The notes under the pieces were generated by a model, which ran no database searches, was not told where the DNA came from, and was given only the letters and a program-made list of their open reading frames with translations. A stretch of DNA of 64,000 bases, from contig NZ_WRPR01000010.1 of NCBI RefSeq assembly GCF_010367455.1, forward strand, positions 1 to 64,000. The letters run 5' to 3'. Shown here piece after piece: positions 7,373-59,310 of the stretch. The position numbers and the translations under genes were made by a program. The stretch is from Candidatus Laterigemmans baculatus. GTDB lineage: Bacteria; Planctomycetota; Planctomycetia; Pirellulales; Pirellulaceae. Numbering within the stretch: the stretch's first letter is position 1; every line of letters starts with the position of its first letter.

Positions 7373-7466
7373 GGGCTAGCGCCCGGCGGCTGATGAATAA
7401 TCCGGGCTAGCGTCCGGCGGCTGATGAATAATCCGGGCTAGCGCCCGGCGGCTGATGGATAATCCG
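7373..7466. repeat. Family C element, three 31-bp tandem units
   Basis: Three units of exactly 31 bases start at 7373, 7404 and 7435. Each contains GGGCTAGCG(C/T)CCGGCGGCTG followed by ATG(A/G)ATAATCC. Just upstream (about 7310-7352) a 16-base GCAGGCTCGGGCTCCC motif is also duplicated. This is the only family C copy here that lies between divergent promoters and not at a 3' end or inside an operon. Confidence 0.8.
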
Positions 7467-7610
7467 GATTCAGCATCCCGTAGGGGCTCAGCGCTCATTG
7501 CGGCAGGTCCCGCATCACCCGCGCGGAATTCCCCCGATCGTGGCAGTTGTGCGAACCGGGCGGGCAATCAGACTGAAGGGCGGCTCCCCCGCCCCAGGTG
7601 AAGGAAGAGG

Positions 7611-8714: not shown

Positions 8715-10421
8715 ATGCCCTGCTCCAAGTCGATCGCTCTCGCCTTACTATTTCTGACTGCCTCCGCGGTGTCGGCTCAAGACAAGGCCGCCCAAGACAA
8801 GGCCGCCCAAGACACGGCCGCCCAAGACACGGCCGCCCAAGACGCACCGGCGAAGGGCGAGGCGACCGCCGCGTCTTCGCAAACCGATATCGTTCGCTCG
8901 CTGCAAGAGCAGGCTGTTACCGCCGCCAAGGCCGACTGGGGCTACTGGGGTTTCGATCCGCAGCGATTCTCGACCTGGACGAACCACTCGAACCGACTGA
9001 TCCCGGTGTACACCTTCGGCGTCTCGCTGGATGCCGTGCGGGAAGACGAGAACCCGTATCACTCGGAAGAGTCGCTGCGAAAGCTGTACGGTCGCGTTCC
9101 CGAAGGCACGCTCAATTCCGACGCCAAGTACTTCGACCAGACGAACATCTACGACTTGCAGCAACAGGCGATTCGCGAGGGCAAGCGGCACGTCATCCTG
9201 ATCGTTTTCGACGGCATGGACTGGCAGACCACGCAGGCCGCTGCGATTCAGGCCACCGGACGCGTGGCCTACACCGAAGGAGCCGGCACCGGATTGTCGT
9301 TCCAGGATTATGAGGGAGTCTCCAAAGATTTCGGCTACTTCGTCACCTCTCCCCACCGCGGGAAGAATAAGGTTGACGTGGATGCCCAGTTGGTGCTCGA
9401 TCCCGACGCGGACTCGACCGGCGGTTACGACCCGCGGCTCGGCGGCGACGCGCCGTGGGCAACTCCCCCCAGCCGAGATTACTTGATCGGTCTCGATCGC
9501 ACCCAGCCGCATACGGTCACCGACTCGGCCAGCTCGGCCACCTCGATGACCTCCGGCATCAAAACCTATAACGCGGCGATCAACGTGGCCGCCGACGGAA
9601 CGCAAGTCGAACCAATCGCCCGCACCTTGCAGCGGGAACGAGGATTTGCGATTGGTCTGGTCAGCAGTGTGCCGAATAGCCACGCGACTCCGGCCAGCGG
9701 ATACGCGAACAACGTCAGCCGCAACGACTACCAGGACATTTCCCGCGACCAAATTGGTTTGCCGTCGGTGGCCCACCGTAGCAAGCCGCTGCCGGGAGCG
9801 GATGTCGTGCTCGGTGGTGGCTGGGGAGAAACGAAGGACAAAGATGCAGGACAGGGAACCAACTATGTTCCGGGCAACAAGTTCATCTCGATGGCCGATG
9901 TCCGCCGCGTGAGCCTGGAAGAGGGTGGGCCGTATGTGACCGTCGAGCGGACGGCCGGGCGCGACGGCAGTGAAGTGCTCGCCAAAGCAGCCGCCGAAGC
10001 GCGGGCTGGCAACCACCGGCTGTTGGGGATCTTTGGTGCCAGCGGAGGAAACCTCCCCTTCCAGACCGCTGATGGTTCGTACAACCCGACGTACGACGTC
10101 ACCGGCTCTGATACCTACAGCGAAGCGGACATCACCGAGAATCCGACGCTGGCCGAAATGACCCGCGCCGCACTTTCGGTGCTGGAGAAAGATCCAGAAG
10201 GTTTTTGGTTGCTGGTCGAAGCGGGCGACGTCGACTGGGCGAATCACGCCAACAACATCGACAATGCGATCGGTGCGGTGCACAGCGGTGCCGATGCCTT
10301 CACGGCGGTCACCGAATGGGTCGAAGCGAACGACGCTTGGGACTCGACCGCCGTGATCCTGACCGCCGACCACGGCCATTACTTCCACCTGACCCGCCCC
10401 GAAGCGCTGCTCGGCGAGTGA
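8715..10421 (+). CDS. Alkaline phosphatase (PhoA superfamily), exported
   Basis: 568 residues from ATG 8715, which follows AGGAA and opens a signal peptide (MPCSKSIALALLFLTASAVSAQ). An ATG at 8586 would bury this signal, so it was rejected. The mature N-terminus has five copies of an AAQD(K/T) pentapeptide encoded by a 15-base tandem repeat. Catalytic features of alkaline phosphatase are visible: the first metal Asp in LIVFDGMDWQ, the nucleophile Ser271 in VTDSASSATSMTSG, DVDWANHANN, and the C-terminal metal motif TADHGHY. It should hydrolyse phosphomonoesters in the periplasm. The stop codon lies inside a duplicated family C repeat. Confidence 0.9.
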   Translation: MPCSKSIALALLFLTASAVSAQDKAAQDKAAQDTAAQDTAAQDAPAKGEATAASSQTDIVRSLQEQAVTAAKADWGYWGFDPQRFSTWTNHSNRLIPVYTFGVSLDAVREDENPYHSEESLRKLYGRVPEGTLNSDAKYFDQTNIYDLQQQAIREGKRHVILIVFDGMDWQTTQAAAIQATGRVAYTEGAGTGLSFQDYEGVSKDFGYFVTSPHRGKNKVDVDAQLVLDPDADSTGGYDPRLGGDAPWATPPSRDYLIGLDRTQPHTVTDSASSATSMTSGIKTYNAAINVAADGTQVEPIARTLQRERGFAIGLVSSVPNSHATPASGYANNVSRNDYQDISRDQIGLPSVAHRSKPLPGADVVLGGGWGETKDKDAGQGTNYVPGNKFISMADVRRVSLEEGGPYVTVERTAGRDGSEVLAKAAAEARAGNHRLLGIFGASGGNLPFQTADGSYNPTYDVTGSDTYSEADITENPTLAEMTRAALSVLEKDPEGFWLLVEAGDVDWANHANNIDNAIGAVHSGADAFTAVTEWVEANDAWDSTAVILTADHGHYFHLTRPEALLGE

Positions 10422-10634
10422 CGCAAAAGAATCAGCCGCCACGCGCTAGCGTCCGGTTTTCCCGGCGCTTGCGGGAACCGTGGGCTAGCGCCCGGCGGCT
10501 GATGAGCAGTTCGGGCTCGCGCTCGGCGAGTGACGCAAAAGAATCAGCCGCCACGCGCTAGCGTCCGGTTTTCCCGGCGCTTGTGGAAACCGTGGGCTAG
10601 CGCCCGGCGGCTGATGAGCAGTTCGGGCTCGCGC
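10411..10634. repeat. Family C palindrome duplicated as two 112-bp units
   Basis: The units 10411-10522 and 10523-10634 differ at only a couple of positions. Each contains CAGCCGCCACGCGCTAGCG facing GGGCTAGCGCCCGGCGGCTG, so each can form a hairpin. The first unit begins within the last codons of the phosphatase gene, so its stop codon is included in the duplicated segment. The element fills the convergent junction with the DUF4142 gene and could stop transcription from both sides. Confidence 0.85.
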
Positions 10635-10666
10635 TCGGCGGCTGACAGAATGTTCGAGCGGCGTCC

Positions 10667-41327: not shown

Positions 41328-41333
41328 AGAACT

Positions 41334-41505
41334 CGTTTAACGGCAAGCCGAAGGCGACTGCTTTTCTCGATTCTTGAATCGTTTAACGGCAAGCCGAAGG
41401 CGACTGCTTTTCTCAATTCTTGAATCGTTTAACGGCAAGCCGAAGGCGACTGCTTTTTCTGCATCCGATTGATGCCCCGTTGCCTTCAGCACGCCGTTGA
41501 ACGAT
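41334..41505. repeat. Family D (REP-like) array upstream of the RAYT gene
   Basis: Three direct copies of a 27-base core containing GTTTAACGGCAAGCCGAAGG (starts 41334, 41380, 41426, period exactly 46) are followed at 41477-41505 by a diverged copy in the opposite orientation. Each core contains GCCGAAGGC, a small hairpin. Together with the copy at 42315 they bracket the transposase-like gene. Confidence 0.88.
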
Positions 41506-41610
41506 TTCGAGGGCGGTTCGACTGAAGTATCATCCCCTGCCGCTTCCCACGAGGCTACAAAGGGAGGAAGAACGACACTTCGGCTCCAAGTCGCACCAGG
41601 AACGCCCGGG

Positions 41611-42243
41611 ATGGTCCACGCATACCATGTGATCCTTCCCGTCTACGGATACTGGCTTCCCAACGATCCGCGTGGAGGCTGGTCGGAGGTGATCCGAAAA
41701 TGGGAGTTAATCCATTTCGGCAACGCCAGCAAAACCCTCGAACGGCGTTTCCTGGAGGAACTTACGCCTCAAGAGTTGCGCGAACGTCAGGCTGCGAAAA
41801 AGCGACTTAAGTACCCAGCGGTCAGACTAACGGGCACACAGGCCGCTGCAATCGGTGGCGGGTTTGCCGAGAAAACCAGAAAAGGCAACTACACAATTTG
41901 GGCGTGTTCAATCCTCCCGGAGCACACTCATTTGGTGATCGCTCGCCGCACCTTCAAGGTCGAGCAGATGGTCAACCTTCTAAAAGGATCAGCTACGCGG
42001 CGACTGATCGACAGGTCGCTTCATCCACTCGCAGCGCATGCCAAAGAGGGCGAACGGCCCCCCAGGATGTGGGCTTCTCACGAGTGGAAAGTTTTCCTCG
42101 ACTCAGAGGAAGCAATCGAAAATGCGATTCACTACGTACAAGAGAACCCTGTCAAGGAAGGCAAGCGCGAACAACATTGGTCGTTTGTGACCCCGTTTAG
42201 CGGGCTGCCGATCGGAAGCTGGGTTACCTACCACACCAATTGA
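41611..42243 (+). CDS. REP-associated tyrosine transposase (RAYT, Y1/HUH family)
   Basis: 210 residues from ATG 41611 (AGGAA upstream). A longer frame from TTG 41497 would start inside a repeat. Hallmarks of the Y1 transposase domain are visible: HVILPVYGYWLPNDPRGGW at the start, the HUH metal motif as LPEHTHLVIAR (HTH) and the catalytic Tyr in AIHYVQENPVKEG. RAYTs are single-copy relatives of IS200/IS605 transposases that nick REP hairpins and are thought to spread them. The gene lies between inverted family D repeats, its probable substrate. Its lower GC and looser codon use differ from its neighbours. It appears intact. Confidence 0.88.
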   Translation: MVHAYHVILPVYGYWLPNDPRGGWSEVIRKWELIHFGNASKTLERRFLEELTPQELRERQAAKKRLKYPAVRLTGTQAAAIGGGFAEKTRKGNYTIWACSILPEHTHLVIARRTFKVEQMVNLLKGSATRRLIDRSLHPLAAHAKEGERPPRMWASHEWKVFLDSEEAIENAIHYVQENPVKEGKREQHWSFVTPFSGLPIGSWVTYHTN

Positions 42244-42314
42244 AGCGTCTGTCACGACTATTTAGTGGCACTGAACCGCTGACTGTTCACGCTTCGTTAG
42301 GCCGGATTGAAACA

Positions 42315-42341
42315 CAGTCGCCTTCGGCTTGCCGTTAAACG
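42315..42341. repeat. Family D (REP-like) element, inverted copy downstream of the RAYT gene
   Basis: One full copy of the 27-base family D core in the orientation opposite to the three copies upstream of the RAYT gene. It lies between the convergent RAYT and lepA genes, nine bases from the lepA stop. Confidence 0.9.
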
Positions 42342-48714: not shown

Positions 48715-48796
48715 CGTTTAACGGCAAGCCGAAGGCGACTGCTTTTCTTCGCTCAACCGCAATCAAACACCGTCGCCTTCGGCTTGCCGTTAAACG
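48715..48796. repeat. Family D pair, inverted (BIME-like), at a convergent junction
   Basis: A direct copy (48715-48741) and an inverted copy (48771-48796) of the family D core flank 29 bases. They can pair into a stem of about 26 base pairs. It lies 12 bases past one gene and 22 before the stop of the opposing gene, the position expected of a bidirectional terminator. Confidence 0.9.
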
Positions 48797-51467: not shown

Positions 51468-51540
51468 CATAGTCGCCTTTCGCTCCGCGAAAGTAGCGTC
51501 TCCCCCACCGGGATCTTTCGCGGAGCGAAAGGCGACTATG
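51468..51540. repeat. Family E inverted pair
   Basis: CATAGTCGCCTTTCGCTCCG on the left faces its complement on the right, giving a stem of about 25 base pairs. It lies downstream of the desaturase gene and upstream of the pepF start (intergenic 51365-51583). Other family E copies are at 52943 and 56322. Confidence 0.9.
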
Positions 51541-52865: not shown

Positions 52866-52942
52866 CTATTCCGGTTTGCTGTCCGAGAAAGCGTTGCACC
52901 GCAGCGGAGCTCAGCCACAAGCGAGAAACATTGGATCACGCG

Positions 52943-53102
52943 CATAGTCGCCTTTCGCTCCGCGCCATAGTCGCCTTTCGCTCCGCGCCATAGTCGCCTT
53001 TCGCTCCGCGCCATAGTCGCCTTTCGCTCCGCGCCATAGTCGCCTTTCGCTCCGCGAAAGTAGCGTTTCTGCACTACTTTCGCGGAGCGAAAGGCGACTA
53101 TG
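52943..53102. repeat. Family E tandem array (five direct, one inverted)
   Basis: Five direct units of exactly 23 bases start at 52943, 52966, 52989, 53012 and 53035, each CATAGTCGCCTTTCGCTCCG plus CGC. A linker with AAAGTAGCG and one inverted copy ending at 53102 follow. There are no unique spacers, so this is not a CRISPR array. It ends three bases from the recG stop codon. Confidence 0.92.
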
Positions 53103-56321: not shown

Positions 56322-56467
56322 CATAGTCGCCTTTCGCTCCGCGCATAGTCGCCTTTCGCTCCGCGCATAGTCGCCTTTCGCTCCGCGAAAGTAGCGTTTC
56401 TGCGATACTTTCGCGGAGCGAAAGGCGAGACTATTTGCGCTACTTTCGCGGAGCGAAAGGCGACTAT
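56322..56467. repeat. Family E array (three direct, two inverted) at a convergent junction
   Basis: Three direct copies (period 22) are followed by two inverted copies that carry the AAAGTAGCG linker. The array fills the gap between the OmpA-like gene and the tex gene, which converge, and could fold into several alternative hairpins. Confidence 0.9.
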
Positions 56468-56471
56468 GGGC

Positions 56472-59020: not shown

Positions 59021-59310
59021 CGTTTAACGGCAAGCCGAAGACGGAATCCGGTGTCCGGTGTCCGGTGTCCGGTGTCCGGTGTCCGGTGTCCGGTGTCCGG
59101 TGTCCGGTGTCCGGAATCCGGAATCCGGAATCCGGTGTCCGGGGTCCGGGGTCCGGGGTCCGGAGAATCTGAAATTTCAAATCCTGCTCTCCCGGCTCCC
59201 GGCTCCCGGCTCCCGGCTCCCGGCTCCCGGCTCCCGGCTCCCGGCTACCGGCTACCGGCTACCGGCTCCCGGCTCCCGGCTACCGGCTCCCTGCTCCCGG
59301 CTCCCGGCTA
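59021..59310. repeat. Family D fragment followed by two heptamer arrays
   Basis: A single truncated family D core (59021-59041) runs into a heptanucleotide array (about 59046-59167). It has roughly 16 units of the type (GTG/GAA/GGG)TCCG, with variants grouped in blocks. After a short unique stretch a second heptamer array (about 59185-59310) has units of GGCTCCC and GGCTACC. Its last unit contains the stop codon of the oxidoreductase gene. The arrays lie upstream of sugE-tex. Confidence 0.9.

Follow-up and report, generated by a model that had tools for sequence, protein, structure and literature searches.

INTRODUCTION

RAYTs, REPs, REPINs and REPtrons are already known, and the closest described counterpart of the locus reported here is the E. 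coli REPtron (TnpA_REP/YafM with its REP/BIME elements; group 2, subclass 2.2; PDB 4ER8). In that system the GTAG tag is read by residues Q95, E100, H101 and R104 (PMC6006769), the C-terminal tail residues G160 and E161 touch the last two GTAG bases, and the REPs need a two-base bulge (PMC8266576). The published guides are GT[AG]G and, in the partly planctomycetal class 3 with its Y----Q motif, CnGA (PMC6006769). The systems tested so far all carry GTAG, and attempts to move the cleavage site by altering the guide were unsuccessful in two of three (PMC8266576). In Pseudomonas fluorescens, inverted REP doublets with a RAYT nearby, the REPINs, are the spreading unit (Bertels and Rainey 2011, PMC3116915). 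A further article describes the GTAG- and CGTC-tagged REP superfamilies, REPtrons and TIRtrons, the palindromes carrying a tag whether or not they come with a tyrosine transposase, and notes that R. baltica abounds in both tyrosine transposases and repeats (Di Nocera et al. 2013, PMC3733652). The family described below bears on the way in which RAYTs recognise their own REPs and on the evolution of this pairing.

AN INTACT RAYT GENE BETWEEN REP CORES

Within the window (the whole stretch of DNA analysed here, 64,000 nucleotides), an intact open reading frame at 41611..42243 on the forward strand encodes a TnpA_REP-like Y1/HUH transposase of 210 amino acids, hereafter RAYT, whose start an alignment of 25 homologues places at the ATG at 41611 rather than at the upstream TTG at 41497. 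The protein has the core order of Y1/HUH enzymes, two metal-binding histidines followed by the catalytic tyrosine: the HUH motif reads PEHTHLV (H105, H107), Y175 lies in YVQENP, which carries the Y-x-x-x-N-P signature, and W154 and a C-terminal tail, SWVTYH, are also recognisable. H105, Y175 and N179 do not vary among 26 homologues, of which at least 90% share H107. The middle residue of the HUH motif is not hydrophobic, being Thr here and in many homologues and Val in others, which is a variant of the motif and not the loss of a catalytic residue. An AlphaFold (AF2) model with a pLDDT of 78.7 resembles ISDra2 TnpA, IS608 TnpA and the RAYT-REP complex 4er8 in structure comparison. The open reading frame, motifs and fold thus bear out the earlier note on this DNA, which had proposed an intact Y1/HUH transposase with HTH and Tyr motifs between REPs.

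RAYT scores 21 bits against PF01797 (IS200-like), below the curated cut-off of 23, and 48.5 bits (E 8e-13) against NF047646 (REP-associated tyrosine transposase), below a curated cut-off of 80 that is an annotation threshold rather than a biological definition and is passed by only 1 of 14 control genomes. Because both scores fall under their cut-offs, RAYT is a divergent member of the family. The YxxxNP motif and the REP neighbourhood place it in class 2 (TnpA_REP) of the TnpA_Y1 classification, in which none of subclasses 2.1-2.8 nor class 3 has the HTH motif or a GTTTARC guide (Quentin et al. 2018, PMC6006769). Like the E. coli REPtron, the locus combines a single-copy Y1/HUH gene with inverted REP borders, a matching structure and a C-terminal tail near the tag; unlike it, RAYT is about 40 residues longer at the N terminus (WLPNDPRGSWS), and the HuH motif is often HTH. 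Residues 151-197 of the RAYT profile align to residues 91-139 of the 4er8 chain, with W154 corresponding to W94. In this register, the E. coli (YafM) residues Q95, E100, H101 and R104 would fall on A155, K160, V161 and D164.

The gene is present once in the genome, as a check proposed in the earlier note confirmed, and in one or two copies in most relatives, and is therefore not multi-copy in the manner of an IS. Omega is mostly 0.04-0.2 in close homologue pairs (only the closer pairs were used, dS being saturated in many pairs), so that the RAYT family is under purifying selection. The neighbours of RAYT in the window are a PfkB-family sugar kinase gene and lepA; this neighbourhood is absent near all homologues bar one weak lepA-like match (L141), and the position of RAYT is therefore not conserved. 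A search for plasmid carriage gave no match.

The REP core is a 26-mer, GTTTAACGGCAAGCCGAAGGCGACTG, and the arm just inside it is one of two types, CTTTT or TGTTT. Left of RAYT lie three exact forward-strand copies with CTTTT arms, at 41335..41360, 41381..41406 and 41427..41452, the last being the closest intact copy upstream of the gene; each belongs to one unit of a 46-bp tandem array of 2.7 copies (41333..41457, forward strand). They are followed by a decayed inverted core at 41477..41502 on the reverse strand, in which 20 of 26 bases match (6 mismatches). To the right, an exact reverse-strand core with a TGTTT arm at 42315..42340 forms the border of the REP-RAYT-REP unit. The three direct cores with their 46-bp spacing, the degenerate inverted core and the single inverted core on the right had all been described before; the sites hold, with several coordinates off by one. 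Of the distant copies that had been reported, two are sound and make up a REPIN doublet with a 28-nt spacer, its left half exact with a CTTTT arm (48716..48741, forward strand) and its right half carrying one mismatch and a TGTTT arm (48770..48795, reverse strand). The third, listed at 59021, proved to be a truncated core (59022..59040, forward strand), exact for 16-19 bases and then giving way to a 7-bp tandem array. Directly past this truncated REP stand two adjacent 7-bp arrays, TCCGGTG x16.7 at 59047-59163 and CTCCCGG x17.3 at 59189-59309. No RNA family in Rfam matched the window.

A GENOME-WIDE POPULATION OF REPINS

A count across the 5.76-Mb draft genome, which the earlier note had also proposed, gave 138+129 = 267 copies of the core with as many as 3 mismatches allowed, whereas a control pattern gave 0, and dinucleotide shuffles of the window lead one to expect 0 copies; a chance repeat is thereby rejected, and the family is not confined to the neighbourhood of RAYT. 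Genome-wide figures here are pattern counts, and the finer description comes from about 556 kb (the window and stretches around REP sites, picked because they bear REPs). The 95 copies in this sample make up 57 groups, of which 36 are inverted doublets (+-) and 20 are lone copies; the remaining one is the triplet at RAYT. The doublet spacer is 11-13 nt in 34 of the 36, and only 8 of the 95 copy midpoints lie inside open reading frames (about 92% intergenic), although these cover 87.5% of the sample. The core family therefore consists mostly of REPINs, that is, inverted REP doublets with a short spacer and a mostly extragenic location, as in P. fluorescens; the tag and the arm sequence are unlike those described there, and the asymmetric arms match the two RAYT borders (PMC3116915). 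Conservation stops abruptly at TC immediately outside the tag.

By nearest-neighbour DNA energies, a doublet folds into a 28-bp hairpin of -38 kcal/mol (z -12.6). A lone REP as a stable hairpin is not supported for this genome, whose isolated REP has -2.9 kcal/mol (z 0.53), and the modal REPs of relatives average a z of only -0.8. Many contigs of the draft (G000) end within a GTTTAAC doublet; GTTTAAC REPINs therefore set a limit to assembly from short reads, and RAYT genes can be missed in draft genomes for this reason.

The Y1/HUH fold, the flanking hairpins and the structural match to ISDra2 and IS608 TnpA would also fit an ordinary IS200/IS605 insertion sequence accompanied by its decayed ends. 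We consider this extremely improbable, given one gene copy against about 270 gene-less REPs, a RAYT-type YVxENP signature instead of Y..NQ, borders made of inverted REPs with no same-strand LE/RE pair, and a score against NF047646 far above that against NF033573.

RAYT SITS IN AN EXPANDED REPIN

All 36 doublets pair one CTTTT-arm REP with one TGTTT-arm REP, and RAYT has CTTTT arms on its left and a TGTTT arm on its right. Since the border arms of RAYT are thus the two halves of a doublet, the REP-RAYT-REP unit is an expanded REPIN or, equivalently, a REPIN is an internally deleted REP-RAYT-REP, and the asymmetry of the arms speaks for an origin of REPINs from such units by internal deletion. 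The high copy number of the repeat, the single copy of RAYT and the arm identity beyond the core show that the earlier reading of the locus as a REPtron was right, but its equation with the enterobacterial and pseudomonad arrangement holds only in part, the tag being GTTTARC and not GTAG and the GTAG-reading residues being, probably, mostly replaced. Judging from sequence, we are confident that RAYT lies within its own REPIN and that the REPIN population has most likely been spread by it, in the past or at present. Weighing against this are the REP-rich genomes of the family in which no homologue was detected (15 of 30, see below) and the weak folding of isolated REPs.

Under this reading, the substrate of RAYT would be single-stranded DNA such as that at the replication fork, in which the enzyme would recognise the GTTTAAC tag together with the mismatched hairpin next to it, made up of an outer stem, an internal loop of 2 nt, an inner stem of 3 bp and commonly a GNA triloop. 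Base pairing to the final bases of the tag would set the site of attack by Y175, the C-terminal tail possibly aiding the reading of the penultimate tag base, and strand transfer would then copy or move REPINs into intergenic sites.

A different account, which we regard as possible but distinctly less probable, is that RAYT has been domesticated as a host protein that binds REPINs without moving them any longer, with a role in replication, in the nucleoid or at mRNA ends, the doublets being relics kept as transcript 3'-end hairpins. Its single copy and the purifying selection across the family fit such a role, as does the position of the sampled doublets close to gene ends, where convergent sites outnumber divergent ones (13 vs 6); the 28-bp hairpin would also form in RNA, and one article argues for long-term persistence of REPINs with their host (PMC8049555). 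However, 64 of the 95 sampled copies are exact, which points to recent or ongoing spread or to conversion, and homologues retain the catalytic His and Tyr.

CO-OCCURRENCE OF RAYT AND REPS IN RELATED GENOMES

A homologue of RAYT was found in 28 of 199 genomes of the same family, and 30 of the 199 are REP-rich, with at least 10 copies of GTTTAACNNNNNGCCGNAGGC, a pattern that does not capture every hairpin variant: the RAYTs of G071 and G198, for example, have GTTTAAC hairpins of a different sequence at their flanks. Fifteen genomes are both REP-rich and in possession of the homologue, an association with an odds ratio of 12 and a P of 1.5e-7, where the P values assume independent genomes and related genomes are not independent; for close homologues only, the odds ratio with REP richness is 23. 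The co-occurrence that the earlier note had proposed to look for is thus present. That note had also named repeats in relatives lacking any RAYT gene as evidence against its reading, and in 15 of the 30 REP-rich genomes no full homologue was found even by profile search, so that such relatives formally exist, for this RAYT subtype only; most of the 15 hold some distant Y1 transposase. The planctomycete origin that had been guessed from the sequence is borne out as well, inasmuch as RAYTs of same-family assemblies equal those in records of Rhodopirellula baltica BR-MGV and Neorhodopirellula pilleata, with the caveat that a MAG record may carry a mistaken organism label.

The absence of RAYT from 15 REP-rich genomes could reflect loss after the spread of the repeats or gaps in the assemblies. 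We weigh the absences in this way because the association is strong and because the gene is present in each of the five REP-rich assemblies that have fewer than 140 contigs. Overall, contig numbers do not differ significantly between REP-rich genomes with and without RAYT (P 0.43), and fragmentation as the sole cause is thus only suggestive and was set aside.

That half of the REP-rich genomes of the family have no detectable homologue could also be taken to mean that RAYT merely landed among, or captured, repeats spread by another enzyme, the association at the locus being coincidental. This is very improbable in view of three observations: hairpins with the same tag stand on both borders of homologous RAYTs across Planctomycetota, the arms at the borders of RAYT are the same as those of the two doublet halves in the genome, and the three other Y1 loci of the genome (C9, C83 and C139) have neither the core nor GTTTAAC nearby, one of them having a different REP family of its own.

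A GTTTARC TAG AND A CONSERVED HAIRPIN PLAN

For 88 distinct homologues, nearly all planctomycetal, we surveyed every 7-mer up to 300 bp away from the gene, expressing enrichment as the fold difference between sequence near the gene and flanks beyond 1.5 kb. The most widespread 7-mer was GTTTAAC in the closer clade (clade A), at 39 of 46 loci and 83.7-fold over the distant flank, and GTTTAGC in the rest, at 26 of 42 loci and 35.7-fold; GTTTARC lies within 450 bp of the gene at 73 of the 88 loci. The sequence 3' of the tag is highly variable, and what is kept is a plan: an outer stem, a 2-nt mismatch, which is like the two-base bulge of E. coli REPs (PMC8266576), a 3-bp inner stem and, in many cases, a GNA loop. 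Covariation is seen in the inner stem, which comes in 8 types: 49 of 72 modal units pair at all three positions in a fixed register, against 19.5 fully paired units (maximum 30) when the 3' halves were dealt out.

A 5' tag, a mismatched stem, a short loop and genome-wide doublets are likewise features of the E. coli REPtron, where the tag is GTAG. No GT[AG]G was found at the hairpin foot here, the tag being GTTTAAC in clade A and GTTTAGC in the other lineage, and we therefore do not class the system as a canonical GTAG REPtron. The GTTTARC tag differs from the published guides and, judged by tag, belongs to neither the GTAG nor the CGTC superfamily of Di Nocera et al. (PMC3733652). A literature search of partial coverage found no report of GTTTAAC repeats or of a GTTTARC tag, and priority is unproven.

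THE C-TERMINAL TAIL TRACKS ONE TAG LETTER

The tag letter is clear at 70 loci, where 39 of 42 GTTTAAC enzymes have Y207 vs 1 of 28 GTTTAGC enzymes, and 36 of 42 have W204 vs 2 of 28, raw counts that are mostly explained by shared ancestry. On the tail-less tree the tag letter changes 2 times, where 22.1 changes would be expected if it were shuffled, and the link between tail and tag has only these two clear switches behind it: one is a deep lineage without the tail, the other a single locus (L096) with a degenerate tail, VFITYNS. A further locus (L080) has a partly decayed tail, AKIFYH, and mixed tags, 7 with A and 4 with G. We hypothesize from these comparisons that the tail helps to read the penultimate tag base; its tracking of that base agrees with the contacts of the E. 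coli TnpA_REP tail on the last two guide bases (PMC8266576).

The chances seem to us about even that Planctomycetota hold a separate RAYT-REP superfamily with a GTTTA(A/G)C guide and a tail that reads the penultimate guide base. Equally balanced, within that reading, is the proposal that, on two or more occasions, the tag switched from A to G together with loss or decay of the tail. If true, the natural variation in this group would reveal the way in which RAYTs select their REPs. The family, found across the phylum, supplies 70 enzyme-repeat pairs of assigned tag and varied hairpins, and a natural one-base switch of the tag tracks a segment of the protein.

A SECOND RAYT-REP PAIR AND OTHER REPEATS

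Besides RAYT, a second gene of this kind lies on contig C139 of the genome (locus L065), a RAYT-like gene with the motifs MPNHVH, WQQEPFDHLVRS and YIRDN and the canonical WQ...DH..R. It is bordered by eight copies of a different REP family of about 330 copies, CATAGTCGCCTTTCGCTCCGCG (165+166 genome-wide, control 0), without GTTTAAC, and together the gene and this family are a second RAYT-REP pair. Two RAYT-like genes thus stand in one genome with a separate repeat family around each, which provides a within-genome control for the pairing. Spread of the core by the two IS200-like Y1 genes (C9 and C83) is rejected, there being neither core nor GTTTAAC near them, and they carry neither REP family.

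Within the window, the CATAGTCGCCTTTCGCTCCGCG family occurs at 51468-51540, 52939-53102 and 56322-56468 in tandem runs and inverted groups, the stretches 52939-53056 and 56322-56387 being 22-23-bp tandem arrays of these REPs placed head to tail. GTTTAAC REPs are likewise arranged head to tail at two other loci (L067 and L084), and tandem growth of REPs seems to be a general tendency in these genomes. Upstream of the C139 protein, REP units lie inside a long open frame that would give SRLSLRESS-like repeats, and the REPs at this locus may be translated. A third high-copy repeat, GGCTAGCGCCCGGCGGCTGAT, occurs in the window at 7373-7467, 10409-10656 and 20331, with 188+128 copies genome-wide and 0 for the control.
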